From positions 1 through 37,751 of the IMG/VR virus record IMGVR_UViG_3300007537_000384: a stretch of DNA of 37,751 bases; one strand, 5' to 3'. Every line of letters begins with the position of its first letter. Within the stretch, counting starts at the first letter, position 1. A program made the translations under genes and the position numbers. Below the pieces are notes generated by a model. It was given only the letters and a program-made list of their open reading frames with translations, had not been told where the DNA came from and ran no database searches. Origin of the DNA: a virus. Positions 741-25,537 of the stretch are shown one piece after another.

Positions 741-1964
741 TTAATTAAGAAGATAAACCTCAAATACTCCCGCAGTAGAATTATCATATAAAATTCTATC
801 AAGGGCAGACTCTCAAAATCACATTCGTAGGTCTAATCTTTTGTCTTTAATTGCTCAACCTCTATCCCTACATGTGACTTCAAATTCCTTATGATTTGAG
901 ACCAATAATAACTTTGCACCTAATTGGATTTCTTTAGGACAAGCTACTACCTTTTCAACCATATCTTCTGTTAATTCACCTCAAGCTCAATGAGATATGC
1001 TACCTTGAGTATTCATACATCTATCAGACCTATAAGAGCCTGTTTGAGTGTTAAATTCTCAATCAATAATATTGCAATCTATGTCAAATTTTTGAGTCCT
1101 AGGGTAATATTTACTTTGATTAGTGAATGGTGAGTAGTAACGACTAACATTATACTCTCCTAGATATGTAACTCAATCTATTTTTTTTATCCCTCTTATT
1201 TCTTCCATTGGGAAGAGTTTTCAAGGACATGCAGTAGGACTTCAAGGAACTTCATTGTGTCATATTATAGGTATTTTTCCGTAATCTTCATATAATTCTG
1301 ATATCAAATACTTAATAACTTGTATTTGTTCTTTCGTTGGTTCATGCTTATTAAAATTTCACATAACCTCCATATGAATGCCATTTCGATTGTATTCTTG
1401 ATTTCTTGTTGCAGTCACTGCTTCCCATAGTGGACGAGTTTTTTTGAATTGTCAATCCTTTCATATAATATAGTGAGTTGGTACAGAACCATGTGTTCTA
1501 AACATACTTCTTTCCATCTCATCTAGTGTTAAATCAGTACGAGTTGCTGTGTGGTGTATAACAATATTTTCATAGGTTCTAACTAACGGTTTCTTTTCTA
1601 TTACTTTTACTATTTTCTTTTCTTTTTCTCAACAAAGCTCATTCTTCTTGCAATATTCCTCATCTAGTTTACAAAGATTTTCACACATCTTTTGCATTAC
1701 ATCTCTAGTTTCATTTGCTTCATCATGTATATTATGTTGAATTGCTTTTGCTCAAGTTATTATAGCCTCTTGCTTTTCTCGTTTTAGTTTTAATTCGTTT
1801 TCATATCATTTTAATTCTTGTATTAGATTTTCATGCTTTTTGATTTGATATTTATGTATCATTGATGGCACTTGCATTCATATGGCCAAGAATATCATAC
1901 ACATTGATATTGGTATTGCGAACTTTGGTTTTATTATCTTTAATAATAATTTTTTAATTTTCAT
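741..1964 (-). CDS. Membrane-anchored endolysin: amidase_2 plus 3D domain
   Basis: 407 aa. Residues 14-34 form one membrane segment (uncleaved signal-anchor or signal peptide). Residues 40-115 are a charged helix with several Cys. Residues 130-255 are an N-acetylmuramoyl-L-alanine amidase (amidase_2/PGRP fold): IVIHHTATR with zinc ligand His137 or 138, GHNEVPGSPTACPGK with His236 and Cys246. All three Gly in that second motif are TGA, strong evidence for the recoding. Residues 295-407 match the 3D/MltA-C-type double-psi barrel: CRDRGGAIKDKRLDL at 365-379 with the Asp residues typical of that family. The protein would thus cut the amide bond and perhaps glycan strands. First of a two-gene lysis cassette, on the replication strand. 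Confidence 0.88.
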
Positions 1965-8332: not shown

Positions 8333-8707
8333 TTATATATCAATTTCAAGAGATTTTTCATTTATTATGAAGTTGATGTTTTCTTCTCAATAATTTATTG
8401 TAATTTCCGTTCATTTTTTAATTGGCTCTGTTGCCACTATAAGCAATGGTCAAGTTTCTTTTTCTTGATACACCATTGCATTTGGGGTTTTACTGTGATT
8501 TATATATCTTGCGTTTTCATACACTCAAACATATCTTCAATTTATGTAGAATAATTTTGATTTCTCATCAGCAGTAAGACTATCCTCCTCATTGTATTTG
8601 GAAAAATAATAAGAGTTACTTTCAATATATTCTCATACAACATAATCTTTTCAAGCAAACAAAGCGTTTCATTTTTCTTCTGTATAGCGAACTATATTTT
8701 TATTCAT
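8333..8707 (-). CDS. Minimal SET-domain protein, putative lysine methyltransferase
   Basis: 124 aa, almost only the SET fold. GNALFAGKDYVVGEYI (13-28) is the opening strand-turn motif (usual form GxGlFA...I.kGE.I). ARYINHSKTPNA (66-77) holds the NHSxxPN motif that shapes the SAM pocket and pseudoknot. LLIVATEPIKKGTEITINYGE (88-108) ends in the catalytic-type Tyr106 before GE. No pre- or post-SET zinc clusters are present. SET enzymes methylate protein lysines using S-adenosylmethionine; the target is unknown and could be a host or phage DNA-binding protein. It lies directly upstream (in transcription order downstream) of the primase-helicase and a 61-aa protein. Confidence 0.82.
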
Positions 8708-8939: not shown

Positions 8940-10937
8940 TTAAATAGAATTAAATCATTCATTTGCCCTCCTTTGTGTTTCTGAAACAGAGAATCAAAAC
9001 TCTCAAGTATTTTTATCAAACTCACTTGCAAATCTTCTATCTCAATATATCCTTCATCTAAGTTTAGTTATATGAAATATAGTCATATCCTCTATATCTC
9101 TAGTTATTTGGATTATAATGTTTGAAACTTGTTTTATCGCAGCTCAATCCTTAAATCGAGATGGACTTGGTATATCATCATTACCTTTATTTCCTTGATT
9201 AGTCCAGTTTCTATAATGAGCAACTAGAAATATCGCTACATTTCTTTTTCTTCATATCTCGTTTATTTGGTGCATCGCATTTTGTATTTGCAAATCGTGT
9301 CTTTCCTTATCGTTCATATGGAAGTAATGCAAGTGGTCTATAACAAACATATCTGCTCAATTATCGCAAGCCCTCTCCATTAACTCAATAAGATTATCTA
9401 TGGTCACCGATTTCTTTTTCTCAAGCTCTGTTACTTCTAGCTTTTGCAATATCTCTTTTGCCCTTCTCATATATGTCCAAAACGCATCATCATTATACTC
9501 GTTGTTTACAAATTTTACCCAAGAATAAGACCTATAATTATCAGCCTTTCTCAATATGTTTACCATATCGTATAACTCCTCTTTTCATTGGTCTTCTATT
9601 CTATCTTCCAAAGAATATCTTATAACATTTCGTCATTGCTTTGCCACATTACTAACAACTGCATTTACAAATGTAGTTTTTCCACATCATGTTTCTGCTC
9701 AAACGGTATATATCTTTCCCTTGTATATTCATCAGAGTGTTTCATCTCGTTCATCCCATCATCGCTTTATAATTTTTTTTGGGTCTGTTTTCTTTATCTC
9801 TTCAAATGCCCTATCAAGTTTATCTTTGTATGATATATGCAAAAAATTTTCTTCAACTTCTTTTTTCGCTATTTCTTTTTTTTCTTTCTGTTTTTTTTCT
9901 TCAAGGTCGTCAAAGTGTATTCAATGTTTTTCTTTAAAATATTCTATTGTCTTCTTTTTATCTTGTCATGCAACCTCATAATAGATTATTTCATAAGGAG
10001 TGAAATAACTTTTATCTGTTTTGATTAGTGAGCTTCAAGTGTTTACAATTATATTGTTTGGCTTCCATCGGTATGCCCCCATATTTTTGTGTCATTCGTG
10101 GAGAGCTGTATTATCTAGTCATTTATCAACAGTCCTAACATCTCGAACCTCTTCTGCTATTATATTTGCTGGTATGCTGTTTATCGCTTCCCAAACACCA
10201 CTTGTTTTTTCATAATCTTTTTTGTAATCTTTTTTTATAATTTCTTTAACTTTTTTTCTATCGTTTTTTTCTTTCTCAATTTCTTTTTTATTTTTTTCTG
10301 CGTATTTTTCTATAGCTGAGAACACCTTTGATTTTTTTTCTTCAAAATAGAGCATCTTACATTCAATTGGTCATAAGTCCCATAAGACCTTTTTCTTTCT
10401 TATTTTTTTTCTAGGGTTCATACTTCATGGCATTCTAGTTATCCTTGATATGTTTTTGCAAGCGTGGTCTGTTGCATATCATGTGGAAGCAATTAAGGCA
10501 TCTATTTTTTTGAATATGTATTCAATTCATAATGAATAAGACTCCTTATCAAAACTCCTCTCCTCTCAAGCGTAATACACATGCAATCAGTTTCAACTGT
10601 CAACTAAAGCACAATAATCTCAAAGTCAATTCTTATCTAATATTTCAACTATCTCTGCATATTTTTCTTGTAACTCGGATTGGTCTAACACTATAGGTTC
10701 TACCTCCTCTGTCATCTCATAATGCATGAGCCTAACATCAATATCGACACAAAAATATTTTTTCTTTGCGATGTCATCATCAGAACACCTATCATCAATT
10801 CATTTCTTTACTCATCAACAAAAATAAATATTGTTTTTTCCTTTAGATTTTTCGTAACTTACAAGGCTTCTTAAATTATTTATTTCTAGTCATTCACTGC
10901 CTTGTAGGAACTCTAAGAATTTTTTATTTTCATCCAT
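8940..10937 (-). CDS. Fused AEP primase and DnaB-like helicase
   Basis: 665 aa. N-terminal archaeo-eukaryotic primase (AEP/PrimPol-type) domain: YFCVDIDVRL with metal ligands Asp65 and Asp67, LVDSGNGLHVYY at 111-122, and ISRITRMPGSMNPRKK at 163-178, the R-x-PG-x-N-x-K signature. A linker with Lys/Glu coils covers about 200-385. The C-terminal RecA-fold helicase has Walker A GAETGCGKTT (Lys420), Walker B MFVIDHLHYF (Asp534), a sensor strand VAIFLVAHYR and SRFKDGAAIKQVSNIIIQITRD. It would unwind and prime the fork in one polypeptide. Both active sites include TGA-Gly. The ATG at 10937 overlaps no gene; the preceding stop is 29 bases upstream. Confidence 0.88.
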
Positions 10938-10966
10938 AGGAATTATTTTTTTTGATATAAAATTTT

Positions 10967-11800
10967 TTATCGGTTTTTTGCTAGACGGTTTCTTAGCGTA
11001 GACTTTCGGTCTTTTTGTTCAACGACTCAAGTAAGAACTTGTGCTTTCCAATACTTTTCAAATTCATCAAGTAGTGGCTTTAAGTTTTTATCCTTGTGTG
11101 TCCTTTCTGTTGCTATCAACACAGTATCAAACCACTTAATAAATTTTTCTGGAGTCTCTGTTTTAGCTGGTATCCATCACAGTCTCAAGAAAACTCACAT
11201 CACATATGCACTTGCTTTGTCTGGATTGTTTTTTGCGTAATCACTCATAATACCTATGGTTTCTTGGTTTTTGTCGGCGTCGCCCAATCTATTTTGTTTT
11301 TTTTCTTCTGCATTTCAAGAGGAATTTTTTTTTAGAGCGGGATTTTTCTTTTTTTTCTTTTCTTTTTCATTCTTGTCATTCTTGTTAATGGGTGTAACCT
11401 TCGTAAAGTTTTCATTGGAGTTTTCATTGGAGTTTTCATTGGAGTTTTCATAGTTGTCCAATGATTGGTATTTGTCGTAGTTAACTACTGTTACTAAAAT
11501 TCAGCGTGGAGTTTTCGTTGTCGTTATCATTAGAGCTTTCATAAGTTGCTTCATAAGAGTCTTCGTGTAGTGGGTATTATATGTCTTTGTTCTATAGCCT
11601 ATTTTGTAGGTAAGTTGCTGTTTTAAATCAGAATGAGTGACAAAACATTGTCATCTTTTTATAATATATTCTCAATATTTTTTTCATTTATGATTTGCTT
11701 TTCAACATAAATAAATTCGTATCTTTAAAAGCTCTGGAGATTTAGTCCATACCTCGCTTTCAAAAATTGTACGTGAAATAATAAATCATCATTTGTTCAT
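10967..11800 (-). CDS. Replisome organiser-like replication protein
   Basis: 277 aa. The N-terminal 120 residues follow the pattern of phage replication initiators with a winged helix: GGFIISRTIFESEVWTKSPELL, IYLCGKANHKG, IIKRGQCFVTHSDLKQQL, then YTKTLMKQLMKAL and GILVTVVNYDKYQ. A hydrophilic linker contains a triple NSNE-type repeat (12-base unit repeated three times at 11411-11448) and a Lys-rich run. The C-terminal part (SDYAKNNPDKASAYVMGVFLRLGWIP) resembles a DnaD-like or helicase-contact domain. Directly precedes the primase-helicase, as expected for an origin-binding or helicase-loading protein. Confidence 0.68.
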
Positions 11801-17602: not shown

Positions 17603-18427
17603 TTATTGTATTTTTTCTATATATTCAACCGCCTTTGTAGACTTTTTAATAGCTTGGAAAAGCTCTTTTTCTTTGTTGTTTTCTTTTATGTCTTTAGCTC
17701 GACTCGATACATATGCAAAGTTGTTTTTGCTAGCGTTTCAAGTAAATAAGCAAGCTCAAAATTCTGCAACAAGCTCTTCTTTTGAATATGCAAAGCCTCA
17801 AAAGTTTGTATCAAGTTTTCTATCTAGTCTTTTACTATTTCAAGTACTATGCATTGCCTCGTGACTTAAAGCGTGTAAATACTCTTCTTTTGATATAAAA
17901 TATTTTGACTTTGGGATATAGATAGTGTCTAGTTTTGGGCTGTATGCAGGTTCTCATTGCTTTAATTGTATGTTTTCTTTATCTATATAGTTTTCCAATA
18001 TTTCTAGTTTTTTACTTGTTTTGTCTTCTATTTGTGCATTTTCAACGTCTTTTTTGTCTTCTTTTTCTACTCATTCAAAACAATCTATATTTGCAACTTT
18101 GTATATATTGAATATCCAACTTTCTTTTGTATCTCAATTTTCAAGTTCTTTTTCTATTTTAGAAAAAAAACAAATAGGATACCATTTAATCCCTTTTTTG
18201 AATTTGTATCAAAGCTTTTGGCTTTGTTTTGCTGTCAATCGTTCATTTGTTTCATACTCATTATTTGCATTTGCAACCATAAGAAATATTTGATTGTATC
18301 AATTGTAAGGCTTTTTTGATAAGTGATTGATTGGCGTTGTAGATTGTCGAGTTTTTACTCGTTTTGTCTCATCTTGCATTGCCTCAAGTGTACTTGATAC
18401 TAATCGTTTGATTTGTTTACTAGTCAT
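17603..18427 (-). CDS. ardC: ArdC-type antirestriction protein
   Basis: 274 aa. The N-terminal part has the ArdC single-strand-DNA-binding pattern: TTPINHLSKKPYNGYNQIFL (30-49), where YNGYN matches the usual Y-x-G-x-N. The C-terminal part is a zincin: HALSHEAMHSTGNSKRLDRK gives His189, Glu190 and His193 (HExxH), and YSKEELVAEFGACL holds the second conserved helix with Glu218 and Glu222. ArdC proteins protect incoming DNA from restriction. Being first in the leftward unit and next to the switch region fits immediate-early expression after entry. Several conserved Gly are TGA. Confidence 0.87.
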
Positions 18428-18534
18428 TTTTATAATATTTTTAGAATTTAAAAGATTTTTGATTGTTTATCTTATTTTTTTATATTTTGCTTTTTTGTTT
18501 ATGTTTGCCTTTTCTTTTGTGTTGTATCTATAAT

Positions 18535-18599
18535 ATACAAAATATACAAAAATACAAGAAAAAATACAAATAAATACAAACATATATATATAAATACAA
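18535..18599. repeat. Array of six ATACAA motifs
   Basis: ATACAA begins at 18535, 18544, 18552, 18564, 18574 and 18594, an iteron-like cluster just upstream of ardC. The complement, TTGTAT, also makes up candidate leftward promoter sequence (TTGTAT, 16 bases, TATTAT near 18530-18557). May bind an initiator or repressor; AT-rich composition alone could yield part of it. Confidence 0.5.
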
Positions 18600-18674
18600 A
18601 ACAATATAAAGCAATCAAACATCAGTTAACAAGTAACAAATAAGAAATCACAAATAAACACAAAAAACAAGGAC

Positions 18675-18702
18675 TTGACAATATCAAAAAAGTATTCATA
18701 AT
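18675..18702 (+). promoter_or_regulatory. Rightward sigma70-type promoter
   Basis: TTGACA (consensus -35), 16-base spacer, CATAAT (five of six of -10). It reads into the G-poor untranslated stretch and then toward the late operon, giving a long leader of about 0.95 kb before the first plausible gene at 19663. Confidence 0.6.
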
Positions 18703-18780
18703 GACATAGAATTCTATTATATAAAAGTATAAAAAAGAAAAACAAAAAAACAGGATAAAATATTGTAATGCATCACAAAG

Positions 18781-18960
18781 CAAAAGCACAAAAAACGCTT
18801 AAACAAAACGCCAACCAAACCAACAAAACAAAACAAATACATAACAATAAAACAATAAACTAAACAGTAAAACAATATGATATACAAAGACTTGTTTTTG
18901 TTTGACTGCAAAAGCTAAACACAAAAAAACGCTTAAACAATCCACCAACCCAACCAACCA
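18781..18960. repeat. Imperfect direct repeat with CCAACC motifs
   Basis: 18781-18824 and 18909-18960 share CAAAAGC, then ACAAAAAACGCTTAAACAA, then a cytosine-rich CCAACC-type tail. A third CCAACCC-AAACCAAC copy lies at 19422-19436. On the minus strand the tails read GGTTGGTTGGGTTGGTGG, a run of two-G tracts able in principle to form a two-tier quadruplex. Confidence 0.6.
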
Positions 18961-19081
18961 ATATACTATGCTATTATAATTATATACTATATAACAAAAT
19001 CATTAAATCCCAATGTTGATTTTGGCTGCTATATAGTTGTACGCATATATAAAAAAAATAGTTGTGTACTGCGTTTATGTT

Positions 19082-19109
19082 ACTTTGCACAAGACTTATT
19101 GTGCAAAGT
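19082..19109. terminator. Perfect 11-bp hairpin
   Basis: ACTTTGCACAA, loop GACTTA, then TTGTGCAAAGT. It is followed on the plus strand by GCTTTTAG, a weak T-run, so it could terminate or attenuate the transcript from the promoter at 18675, or be an origin hairpin or protein-binding palindrome. Confidence 0.5.
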
Positions 19110-19662
19110 GCTTTTAGTTTTGTCAGTTCAAAACTACAATTTGAAAATAGCACAAAACAAAAAAGCACAATACAAAACAGTCAAAAAATCCGAATAAATA
19201 AAAAAAATAGTATCTTGGAAGTATCAAAAAATAATCCAAAATAAATAGAAACAGTCCAAAACATACTTAAAAAGCACAATATAAAGACATAAAAGGATAT
19301 TGAATATTGAAGCAATAATATAGTAGAGGGATACTGTAAGATATAGGGCTTTGATTGCATAGGGCTGAAAAAGTTCAGAAAACACGCCCCCATATGCCAC
19401 ATATACATGCTGATATTCACTCCAACCCAAACCAACTTCTAGCTATATATAAAACTAATAATAAGTCAATTATTCAGTCCAAAACAGGCAAAACACCCAT
19501 AGGGGGTTGTTATATATAGGATTGAAATGATAAAAATATAGCATCTCAAAAAAAATTTTGGGACACAATTTACAGACATTGACATTTCAAATAAAATAGT
19601 ATGGAATATATCTTTTGTCAAGGAAATAGAATGGCCAGATAGGTAACAGCTTGGAAAACTAT

Positions 19663-19899
19663 ATGTTACAAAAATCATTCCTACTCGATAAAAAACGGAT
19701 AAAAAAATCAATCATCATTGACATTTTAACAAAAAGAACACAGTTCTCATCGTTACAAATATTACTAAAAAAAGGGTGGTGTTTGTATAGATATATATGA
19801 CACAAAAAAAGACTTGCAATTGAAAGGAGAAATAATAAACCAATGATAATGGTATGTAGTAATCTGCTTTACTCTATAAAAATTTTAAATGTGTGATAA
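19663..19899 (+). CDS. Possible small basic protein, first of late unit
   Basis: 78 aa when two TGA are read as Gly: MLQKSFLLDKKRIKKSIIID, KRTQFSSLQILLKKGWCLYR, ending LLYSIKILNVG. Very Lys/Arg-rich. The stop overlaps the ATG of the next frame by 11 bases, which favours a real coupled pair. No family seen; it could be a DNA-binding protein. The composition is less typical than other genes, so it remains tentative. Confidence 0.4.
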
Positions 19900-20134
19900 A
19901 TCCACAATTTCTTTATTAGAGAAAAAGGTATGCAGGCTACAGGTTAGAAATAGGAACTTAAAAAAGAAGACTGAGAAGAAATATAGTCATTTATTCATAT
20001 GTAAGAAAATACAGGAGAGTGTATTGAAATTTATGGAGAAAAGTTGAAAGGAGAGGTGCACGAAGGATATTTCGTTGTATGAGTATTGGTCTTTTATTGC
20101 TCAATGTATTGAGGAGGAGGAGATAATAGAGTAG
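19889..20134 (+). CDS. Possible small protein upstream of terminase genes
   Basis: 81 aa, one TGA-Gly: STISLLEKKVCRLQVRNRNL, a basic helix, IQESVLKFMEKSGKERCTKD and an acidic end (ECIEEEEIIE-like). Starts inside the end of the preceding frame and stops 24 bases before the next gene. Position could suit a small terminase or regulator, but no motif confirms it. Confidence 0.42.
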
Positions 20135-20158
20135 TTTTTTATATTCTTATATATTATT

Positions 20159-20884: not shown

Positions 20885-22609
20885 ATGGCTGAATTTAAAC
20901 CATCAAACAAACAGTTTAAGGCTCTTATGTATCTTGGTGCGATACCGATACAAGAAGAGACTAATGATTGATGGAAGCCATTATATAATGATAAATGATA
21001 TCCTGTTTATGATACAACTACAACTGCATTGGGGTATTGAGGAGCAGCTTGATGAGGAAAAAGTTACCTATGATGTAGATGGATACTAATGATGGCATCC
21101 AAATTCCCTTGAACGCCTTGGTTTATATGTCGTGCAGAGTTGAAAAGATTAAAACAATCTACTCTTGTAACGATGTTTAAGGTGTTCAAGGAGGATGGCA
21201 TTAAAGATAAAAGAAAGGCTTGAGTGGACTACCAATGAATGCGGTACGAATACAGAGAGATAGAAGGTAAGATAACGCTTTGGAATGAAAGTGTTATATA
21301 TCTTGTTGGTCTTGACCATCAACCATGAGACCCAGAATATCTCAGATTCGGTTCGGTCGAATACACTGGTGGTTTTTTCGATGAAGCAAATGAAGTCCCT
21401 CATAGTGGATATGAGATATTAGTTTCCAGAATAAGAGCTAGTCTTGAGGACTTTTGTCCTCATTGTGCATCCAGAGTGCATGATGAAGATTTTATTGAAG
21501 AAGAAAGGATTAAAAACCCAAACCCTGCGAATAAAGATGATGAGCGAGTGGAGAAGAATTTATATGAGTGTGGTATTTGTTGAGCTGAGCATTATTGAAT
21601 AACTCCAAAGACACTTTGTACATTTAATCCTGATATGTCACGAACAAGAGAGAAGTTTTATGTTCCTTGGAGAGATGAAGAGGAGCAAGGATGAGATACT
21701 AAATTTATACCAGCCTTAGTTACTGATAATCCATTTATTCCTAAAGCATACATTACAAACCTTAGAAGGATGAAAGATAAAGTAAAGAGACAGAGACTCT
21801 TGCATGGTAATTTCGATTATGATGATAGCCCTTGAAAACTACTTGAGCATGATGATATAGTTGAGATGTTCAATAGAGAAACCGAAGACCAAAAATTGGC
21901 CAAAAAATATAAAAGTGACCCAGAATATAGGAAGTTATTTTCTCAACTCGGTAAATGTCAGGACACTTGATATGAATATAAAATTACTTGTGATGTAGCG
22001 AGACACGGAAGAGACCTTGCAATCATTTTTGTGTGGAATAAGTTAAGTATTGTTGAAATTTGGATATATACTTACTCTGATATAGGAGAATTAGAGGACA
22101 GAATAAAAATATTGGCTCAAAAATATAAAACAAACAATCTAGATGTTATGGTAGATGAAGAATGAGTCTGATGATGACTAGTAGATGCATTGGGATGTAG
22201 ATGATTTATATCTAATTCTTCTGCAATCCAACCAAAATCATCAAAGAAAGACCCTTTAAAGAAGCTAAATTATTATAGATTAAGAGACCAGTGTTGGTTT
22301 GAATTGCAAGATAATATCAAAGACATTGCTATAGATTTAAGTAATATATATGTTATTTGAGATAGAGTATCTGGTAAAACAGGTAAGGTTGTAGACCTTT
22401 CTGAAGAAAAAATAAAGCAAAGAATTATAGATGAGCTAGATGTAATGGTGGAGATAGATATTGATAAGGACTGACCAAAAAGAGTGATAGGAAAGGAAGC
22501 TATCAAGAAAAAAATATGACGTTCTCCCGACTTCTGAGATAATTTTATGTTCAGGATGTTCTGGTTTGTAAAGAGGAGTAAAAAGGTATATGTTTATTCT
22601 CCTGAGTAA
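20885..22609 (+). CDS. terL: Terminase large subunit
   Basis: 574 aa, the DNA-packaging motor. ATPase: P-loop GYGGAAGGGKS at 50-60 (Lys59), where three Gly are TGA; Walker B TGGFFDEANE with Asp166 and Glu167. A zinc ribbon is inserted at about 191-232: CPHC and CGIC pairs. Nuclease (RNase H fold): TCDVARHGRDLAIIFVW with Asp370 and Asp377, VMVDEEGVGGGLVDAL with Asp424, then YYRLRDQCWFELQD. Length is normal for the family. Reading TGA as Trp would abolish the P-loop, so this gene is the clearest proof of code 25. Cuts concatemers and pumps DNA into the prohead through the portal. Confidence 0.96.
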
Positions 22610-22674: not shown

Positions 22675-23991
22675 ATGGTAAAGGATTATATAAAAAACGC
22701 CATAAATAATGTATTTGGGAAATGAATGAAGAAAAATGACATTATGTGAGAAATGAGCAGACGTTGATATACGTATGTTTGAGATAGTTTTTCTGATTGT
22801 TGACCTATATCTATGGATTACAAAACTATGTTTGAAGTTCAAAGGATGAATGTGACAGCTCAGCAAAGCAAAAACCTTATAGTTAAAATGGTAGGAAAAA
22901 AATGAACAAATTTTTATGAAGGAAAGAAGCTCGTTGATTCAAAAAAACGAAGCAACATTTTTCAAGAGATGTTTAATGACCCAGTTGTTGGTTCTTATAG
23001 AGCATTTAAAGATAAATATTATACCAATCATTTCTGTTCTGGAATGGTTTTTTGATATGTAGCAAGAAATATGTTATGAGAACCAAGAATACAAATATTA
23101 GATTCTAGATGAATAACTCAAGAATTTGATTCTCTTGGAAATGTAAAGAAAATAAAGTACAATAATAAAGAAATTGATAAGAGTAGAGTTATAAGACAGA
23201 TAACTCATTATGACCCAAATAGAAACTGATATGGTATGTCTCCATATGAAGGAATTGTATATGATGCGATGTCTGACAGGGAGGCAAGTAAAAGAAATTT
23301 CTATTTCTTTAAAAACAATGCTATGCCATCAGTTATCCTTACTTTAGATGATGAGATAGAAAATCCAGAGGAGATAGAAAAAGCGATAAAGCAATTTGAA
23401 AATAAGTATAAAGGTACTGAAAAATCACATGGTGTTATGGCGTCTTGAGGTATAAAAGAGGTTAAAACTATTGATATATCTAATAAAGACTTAGAATTGC
23501 TAGATTTAGAGAAGTTTGCTATAAAAAAGACTGGTATAGTATTCTGATTTGACCCTAGATTTGTTGGATATAAAGATGATGCGAATGGTTCTCATGCTGA
23601 ATATCAATTAATGGCTAGCCAATCAGACAAGTCGATGATTAGTTTTGCAGATATACTTGAAGACTTCATGTACATGGCCGCAAAAATAGCATACGAAAAA
23701 TTCCCTTTCAGTAAGGTTGAATTAATTAACGACCAGTTCGTAGATGTTCAACTAAAGCAAGAACTTATCTTGAAGAAATTAGAGAAAGGAGCTTGTACCT
23801 TGAAGCAAGCAATATCTGAACTATGATACACTACTGAATGACTTCCTGAGTATATGGATACATATGTAATAAACTCTCAACGAAATTCTATTGAGAATTT
23901 ATTTAAGAAAATGAAAGTTGATATAAAAAAAACAGAGAAAGAAATAGAAAAAGAAAGCTCTGAAAATACAGTTAGTACCGATGAAGAATAA
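22675..23991 (+). CDS. Portal protein
   Basis: 438 aa, HK97-type portal by order and motifs: MDYKTMFEVQRMNVTAQQSK, HYDPNRNGYGMSPYEGIVYD, SDREASKRNFYFFKNNAMPS, VILTLDD, then KKTGIVFGFDPRFVGYKDDA and a helical C-terminus with a charged tail. The dodecameric portal sits at one head vertex, docking TerL and later the head-tail connectors. Eighteen or so Gly are TGA. It follows TerL after 65 bases. Confidence 0.88.
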
Positions 23992-24070: not shown

Positions 24071-25537
24071 ATGGATTACACAGAAATGTCTAAAAAGGAA
24101 TTTAAAAACTATATTAATGAAAAAGGTTTTTTTGTTAATTTTAATGCTGAAAGGATTAATAAAAATGACTTTGAGGAAAGTCTTGAGGAGAATGCTAAGA
24201 GTAAAATTATGGCAAAACTACCAAAATGAGATAATATAGTTGTGTTCCAAGGTATAGCATCACAAAATTATGGTGTTGGTAAGAAAAACAGAAATTGATA
24301 CAAAATTGACCAATCTGGTTGGATGTTTGACTCTTATAAAGGAAATCCAATCATGCTTTTGCAACATAACCATGAATATGGTGGAATTGGTCATTCGTTA
24401 AGACTTTTCCTTGACGAGAAAGGAAATCTTAATAATATCTTTTATGTTGATATGAACACCCTCGATGAGAGAACTAAATATCAAGTAGAAAATTGATATA
24501 TAACTGCTGTTAGTACGTCTCATATCACTCATGAAGATATGATAGAAGACAACAAAACTTGAGAAAGATATACATGGGAAGAAGCAAGAGATAAAGATAT
24601 CGACTTGTGGAGTGTTATCTTTGGGGTTAGTGAGTCACATACAATGGTTGTGACTAAAGCAGAGATGATTGAAAATAGCTTAGTTACTATTGGTAGTAAT
24701 GAAGAGGCTATCGTTTCTCATAATAGTGTATGAAATTATTTTACTAATAAATATACATCAAACATGAAAATTACTAAAGCTGAAAAAGAGAACCTACTCA
24801 ATCAGCCATTGTCAAATAGCTTAAAGGCTAAAATAAACGAACTAGAAGTAGAAGAAGCTAAAGAAGAGGATAAAGAAGAGAACAAAGAAGAGGTTAAAGA
24901 AGAGAACAAAGAAGAAGTTAAAGAAGAAGTTAAAGAAGAGAACAAAGAAGAAGTTAAAGAAGAAGTTAAAGAAGAAGTTAAAGAAGAGGATAAAGAAGAA
25001 GTTAAAGAAGAGGATAAAGAAGAAAATAAAGAAGAAAATAAAGAAGAAGTTAAAGAAGAAGTTAAAGAAGAAGTTAAAGAAGAATCTCCAAGCGGAGATA
25101 AAAAAGAAGATGAGCCTGAAAATGGCGACTCAAATATGGATGCAGAAGCCAAAAAAGAGCCTGAATCTCCTGAAAACGGAGATGAAGAACCTGAAAATGG
25201 TGATTCAGATAAAGGTGAAGCAAAGGTTGAAGCTCCAGCGTCTGAAAATGACAAAAAAGAGGAAAACTCTATAAAGACACAAGAGAATTTGATTGAGTTT
25301 CAAAAGAACGAAATTGAATCTCTAAAAAATGAACTTCAAAAAGTTCAAAAAGAAAATGCCGATAAATTCAAAGTATTGGAGGATGCGGTATGAGTTGCTT
25401 TGGAAAATACAATTAGTATTACCAAAAGCATGAAGAATGTTTTAGTTGAAGGTGTTGACGCTTTTAAACAAGATGAAGATACACCAAAAAAAGAAAACAG
25501 ACTTTCTAGTCTCTTGAAAGAGATTAAGAAAGGTTAG
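24071..25537 (+). CDS. Prohead protease fused to scaffold-like domain
   Basis: 488 aa. Residues 50-215 fit the HK97 U35/S78 prohead protease fold: GNPIMLLQHNHEYGGIGHSL with His99, then GYITAVSTSHIT with the serine region Ser148/150, and MIENSLVTIGSNEEA, matching the family's E-x-SLVTxPAN hallmark. Residues about 258-345 are Glu/Lys low-complexity repeats, followed by a Pro/Gly/Glu-rich part and a coiled coil (ESLKNELQKVQKENADKFKV) to a basic end. Proteases fused to a scaffold assemble the prohead and then cleave it. Upstream of the capsid gene, as expected. Confidence 0.86.
24840..25085 (+). repeat. Tandem 12-base units encoding EEVK-type repeats
   Basis: Imperfect units of GAAGAAGTTAAA, GAAGAGGATAAA and GAAGAGAACAAA run for about 20 copies inside the protease-scaffold gene. 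They give Glu-Glu-Val/Asp/Asn-Lys tetrapeptides. Copy number is likely to vary by slippage. Not a CRISPR array: no spacers. Confidence 0.85.

Follow-up and report, generated by a model that had tools for sequence, protein, structure and literature searches.

Gene content and codon usage

The stretch of DNA analysed here (the window) takes up an entire IMG/VR virus record, 37,751 bases in length, which is classed as linear and may be incomplete. It belongs to an AT-rich tailed phage (GC 24–34%), in which the early module is read leftward and the packaging and virion module rightward. These divergent modules are separated by about 1.7 kb of AT-rich DNA almost devoid of convincing genes (18428–20158), which carries imperfect repeats and is a candidate control or origin region. 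The early module also encodes a small SET-domain protein (8333–8707, minus strand; Pfam E 1.9e-12). The features used in the analysis are the following.

741..1964, minus strand: amidase and 3D-domain lysin; 17 TGA
1221..1262, minus strand: amidase motif GHNEVPGSPTACPG; three TGA; PDB amidases align GH..TACPG
8940..11051, minus strand: primase/DnaB-like helicase; 34 TGA, 6 CGA
9675–9701, minus strand: helicase Walker A GAETGCGKT; two TGA read as Gly
10581–10598, minus strand: primase motif SGNGLH; two TGA read as Gly
17603..18427, minus strand: ArdC-like anti-restriction protein; 9 TGA, 5 CGA, with residues 23, 63 and 243 at conserved Trp columns
20885..22609, plus strand: terL, 574 aa; 24 in-frame TGA (read as Gly), 2 CGA, 1 CGG
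21032..21064, plus strand: TerL P-loop GYGGAAGGGKS; three TGA read as Gly
21641..21643, plus strand: CGA codon of TerL residue 253, read as Trp; all seven standard-code TerLs have W here (WWWWWWW)
22675..23991, plus strand: portal; 14 TGA, 2 CGA (residues 92 and 403; TGG in relatives)
23221..23253, plus strand: portal motif RNGYGMSPYEG; one TGA
24071..25537, plus strand: protein in the portal-to-capsid gap, by position probably a protease/scaffold; TGA 6/25 Gly codons
25571..26719, plus strand: major capsid protein; TGA 1/30 Gly codons
29554..30417, plus strand: probable major tail (tube) protein, by position; TGA 1/22 Gly codons
31064..35857, plus strand: tape measure protein; TGA 64/86 Gly codons
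35874..36710, plus strand: distal tail (Dit-like) protein; 24 TGA, and CGA 228 and 271 at aromatic or Trp columns

The probable tube protein had no family match in profile searches.

Under code 25, 49 genes were modelled, containing 416 in-frame TGA, 255 GGN and 75 TGG codons. As stated in an initial annotation made from the sequence alone, these genes end only in TAA (39) or TAG (10), never in TGA, and none requires TGA as its end. Since the models assume code 25, such TGA counts are partly circular; coding density, a less circular measure, is 0.84 under code 25 vs 0.20 under code 11. TGA makes up 62% of glycine codons over the window, and CGA occurs at 43 per 10,000 codons.

Reading of UGA

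The terL frame (20885–22609) stays open for its 574 codons only if 24 TGA are read through. Residues 50–60, the P-loop, are encoded as GGG TAT TGA GGA GCA GCT TGA TGA GGA AAA AGT, so that the claim of the initial annotation that GYGGAAGGGKS needs three TGA to be glycine is borne out codon by codon. The same dependence had been proposed for three further motifs, and the codons are indeed there: three TGA in the amidase motif GHNEVPGSPTACPG, two in primase SGNGLH and one in portal RNGYGMSPYEG.

We aligned TerL, with TGA masked as X, to seven standard-code phage TerLs (from Bacteroides, Flavobacterium, Cellulophaga, Polaribacter and spring phages), a column check that the annotation had suggested. 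TGA columns hold mainly glycine (69/128, 54%) and about 1% tryptophan, and do not point to arginine or to gene ends. In the same seven proteins, GGN columns are glycine at 64/125 (51%) and TGG columns are tryptophan at 19/58. At the P-loop TGA columns 52, 56 and 57, glycine is present in 6/7, 7/7 and 6/7 TerLs, and TGA positions 56, 63 and 545 are glycine in all seven or in all except the most distant one. ArdC behaves likewise, its TGA columns 43, 73 and 119 being glycine in all four plasmid homologues (GGGG).

Phage relatives were assembled as about 50 viral contigs fetched with portal and capsid queries; no confirmed relatives emerged when viral contigs were scanned with TerL, helicase or amidase, or when named phages were searched with portal and amidase, and a PDB search with TerL gave no match. 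Over 144 columns from this phage family, the masked-codon likelihood for UGA was +34.9 for glycine, the next residue reaching +2.2. Tryptophan (codes 4/10 type), or another residue, is hardly credible as the meaning of UGA even though UGA = Trp is the most frequent UGA reassignment among bacteria (PMC8629427, Table 1), given the roughly 1% tryptophan against 54% glycine at TerL TGA columns and the pairing of TGA with TGG in only 4 of 1629 codons aligned with phage relatives. Judged by these alignments, UGA as good as certainly specifies glycine in the window.

Reading of CGA

The first lead on CGA came from codon pairing with relatives, where tryptophan was 34-fold enriched among CGA partners. 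A single TerL column was considered as the source of this enrichment and ruled out by a per-column count. Among the 11 CGA columns with relatives, 8 have a TGG partner and none has AGA, AGG or CGT. TerL residue 253 (CGA) is tryptophan in 7/7 standard-code homologues; for ArdC, tryptophan stands in 4/4 such homologues at residues 23 and 243, and in 3/4 at residue 63. When columns were scored, tryptophan was preferred to arginine at 9/10 CGA and 21/23 TGG columns, vs 2/125 AGA, 0/33 AGG and 0/7 CGT columns; in 100,000 samplings of Arg-codon columns, which are not independent, the CGA mean score was never reached.

Profiles built by others were then scored with CGA and CGG read as tryptophan or as arginine. 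The tryptophan reading raised the scores for ArdcN (49.0 to 59.7), the ArdC metallopeptidase domain (72.3 to 80.0), the ArdC PHROG phrog_7245 (138.2 to 158.9 bits), TerL phrog_979 (78.3 to 89.1), helicase phrog_239 (95.6 to 99.5), Dit phrog_5577 (30.8 to 35.0) and the lysin 3D domain (20.0 to 23.9 bits). Slight drops were seen for phrog_2 (67.1 to 65.0), Terminase_6N (22.7 to 19.6), Amidase_2 (67.0 to 66.3) and DnaB_C (51.5 to 50.0). A few CGA columns are uninformative, such as capsid residue 373, which is mostly threonine.

It could be argued that the window follows plain table 25, with CGA as arginine and the conserved tryptophan sites at CGA as chance replacements. Several family relatives do read CGA as arginine (L031, L034, L038, L040), and some CGA codons of the window sit within charged stretches. 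Nevertheless, this reading is very improbable: tryptophan is favoured at nearly all CGA columns and hardly or never at AGA, AGG and CGT columns, the TerL and ArdC sites are tryptophan in standard-code homologues, profile scores go up, and a replacement of TGG by CGA requires two changes. Sequence comparison thus makes it extremely likely that CGA encodes tryptophan in the window. CGG, with just 2 codons here, may well do so too, and relatives L018–L022 favour tryptophan at this codon.

The code of the window is therefore not NCBI table 25, contrary to the annotation: UGA conforms to that table, and CGA, arginine there, does not. Similarly, the annotated role of TGG as a tryptophan codon stands, with the omission that CGA appears to serve as a second one.

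Decoding and host

No tRNA gene was found in the window with ARAGORN or Rfam, the record being linear and possibly incomplete, and none in the related loci L002–L008. With no decoding tRNA encoded in the window, the host would have to supply it. The phage would use a host Gly-type tRNA(UCA) for UGA and a host Trp-type tRNA(UCG) or tRNA(CCG) for CGA, and reliance on host tRNAs would restrict the synthesis of phage proteins to double-code hosts.

A capsid match of 45% identity was found in G001, a 'Candidatus Gracilibacteria' metagenome-assembled genome. In G001, TGA has a frequency of 54.6 per 1000 codons and coincides with glycine at 340 aligned E. coli positions, and the sole RF-1-domain match is a full RF1. 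CGA is hardly used (0.18 per 1000), so G001 is no model of the window's host. The search for tRNA-Gly(UCA) that the initial annotation had proposed for host bins was run on bacterial genomes, and a tRNA(UCA) with G1:C72, C2:G71, G3:C70 and U73 was found in most of 28 genomes of the G001 family; these are the Gly-identity features given in PMC8629427, where G73 and the absence of A20 are those for Trp identity. In 14 members of this family (L211:1466–1544 and 13 more), the Gly-type tRNA(UCA) has an unusual D-arm, and ARAGORN labels the family's tRNA as tRNA-SeC.

Two genomes of the same class, G011 and G023, also read TGA as glycine, and of every 10,000 codons up to about 58 in G011 and 48 in G023 are CGA. 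Both carry a tRNA(UCA) with Gly identity together with tRNA(UCG) and tRNA(CCG) that have G73 and lack A20. The 46 CGA columns of G011 (Trp 13, Phe 10, Tyr 6) resemble its TGG columns; G023 is the closest to the window in TGA and CGA usage, with just four CGA columns aligned. By comparison with PMC8629427, we infer that both are Absconditabacteria. Recoded genomes have one RF1-type match and their standard-code class-mates two; no RF1-type match was found in G013, likely a gap.

The annotated host type, Absconditabacteria/Gracilibacteria, agrees with the code, the codon usage and the 45% identical capsid. Reading CGA as tryptophan besides UGA as glycine leaves as hosts only lineages in which both codons are reassigned, and on the basis of codon usage, code and the capsid in a Gracilibacteria genome, Absconditabacteria are probably the host group. 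A separate observation concerns G075 (L251, L242), which lies inside the code-25 order, has 4 TGA in rpoC, CGR as arginine and one RF1-type match, and carries a related capsid without TGA; it is possibly an early stage or a reversal of recoding.

Code switching offers another account, in which the phage would infect a standard-code host, supply its own suppressor tRNA and have its recoded genes read only late. Phages reassigning TAG or TGA in standard-code hosts are known to do this (discussed in PMC10746230), and in a linear, perhaps incomplete record the tRNA gene could sit outside. The window has neither of the two marks of such a phage, a suppressor tRNA of its own or a late-gene concentration of the recoded codon. 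The missing tRNA extends to L002–L008, and the early replication genes are rich in TGA (helicase 34, share 0.81) while the late capsid gene has very little, opposite to what a late-gene lock would give. Moreover, the sense change of CGA to tryptophan would need new tRNAs as well, and bacteria with exactly this double code exist. Code switching thus retains little probability. UGA and CGA are in all likelihood decoded by host tRNAs, and the whole is very likely explained by a tailed phage of code-25 bacteria with a host-decoded double code, UGA for glycine and CGA for tryptophan.

TGA avoidance in the capsid and probable tube genes

TGA accounts for 2/52 glycine codons in the capsid and probable tube genes vs a share of 0.67 in all other genes taken together (odds ratio 0.02, p 2e-20). 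The same two genes shun ATA, TTA and TTT and prefer ATC and TTC. Across related loci with enough glycine codons, the TGA share of the capsid gene lies below that of the rest of the locus in 43/43 (medians 0.11 vs 0.62), and below that of the portal gene in 34/34; as these loci are related, p-values are inflated. In G001, where the median TGA share is 0.86, the lowest shares include those of L19, L7/L12, EF-Tu, L14, EF-Ts and DnaK. Some ribosomal proteins use TGA freely (L2 0.87, L18 1.0), so the link with expression in the host is a tendency.

UGA may be a slower or scarcer glycine codon, in which case translational selection would purge it from those virion proteins that are produced in the largest amounts. 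High expression of the capsid gene is assumed here from stoichiometry. An unlikely alternative is that the low TGA content reflects recent acquisition of capsid and tube genes from standard-code phages, since standard-code relatives of the capsid do exist (L027, L031, L034, L036). Avoidance in all 43 loci, across a deep tree, argues against it, as do the adjoining portal genes, which keep TGA, and the shunning of ATA, TTA and TTT. Translational selection on a slow or scarce glycine codon is therefore the likely cause of TGA avoidance in the capsid gene. Avoidance of this strength makes the decoding speed of a reassigned codon testable.

Relation to known codes and phages

The glycine reading of UGA is known, and a phage with the double code appears to be new. 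Code 25, that of SR1/Absconditabacteria and Gracilibacteria, was reportedly described by Campbell and by Rinke in 2013. It also appears in Hanke 2014 (PMC4032931), and phages sharing UGA = Gly with such bacteria have already been published (PMC4032931, PMC10746230). The window resembles NCBI code 25 in UGA as glycine, in TAA and TAG stops and in candidate hosts with a Gly-type tRNA(UCA) and no second release factor, and differs from it in CGA, apparently tryptophan here and arginine in table 25.

The closest match is the double code of Absconditabacteria, UGA as glycine with CGA/CGG as tryptophan (Shulgina and Eddy 2021, PMC8629427). The reassignments of UGA and CGA are shared, CGA is more frequent than CGG in both, and the tRNA identity rules hold in the matching genomes G011 and G023, but the published case concerns bacteria and the present one a phage. 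With the phages and prophages of Gracilibacteria and Absconditabacteria (Liu et al. 2023, PMC10746230), the window has in common dense in-frame TGA, the host type and a code switch being unnecessary; in that study only codes 11 and 25 were tested, and the words 'capsid' and CGA are absent from its main text. Two phage assemblies follow a host AGG = Met reassignment (PMC8629427). These are alike in adopting a host's sense-codon reassignment and relying on the host tRNA, and unlike in codon, amino acid and host, with a single reassignment. No published phage with CGA as tryptophan was found in the open-licence literature.

Table 25, usual for phages of these bacteria, would place arginine at tens of tryptophan sites per genome. 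The double code also provides a quick host test, as a phage with CGA as tryptophan fits only lineages with a Trp-type tRNA(UCG).

Codes among the phage relatives

In the capsid-tree neighbours of the window (L002, L004, L017–L023, L028–L030), CGR favours tryptophan over arginine, the best residue at CGR in L028–L030 being phenylalanine or tyrosine. CGR is arginine in L031–L036, L038, L040, L041 and L027. TGA serves as a stop in apparent genes of L027, L031, L034 and L036, which are standard-code members of the capsid family with higher GC (0.41–0.63).

We tentatively suggest, at slightly less than even confidence, that one lineage, united by a common capsid and portal module, includes phages of at least three codes (the standard one; UGA = Gly with CGR = Arg; UGA = Gly with CGR = Trp). 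Its phages would have kept up with their hosts as the code changed step by step, with a host range locked by the code and with UGA kept from the most translated virion genes because a single tRNA limits the rate. With such a family one could examine whether viruses go along with changes in the host code, cross them or are barred by them.

In-frame intein-like inserts of about 360 residues were observed in the terL genes of L002 (1189–4956), L004 (880–3543) and L007 (1811–4348). They sit at the P-loop GK/S junction in L002 and L004 and at another site in L007, and L002 has a second insert site after DDDGVG. The first residue of the P-loop insert is Ile, not Cys.
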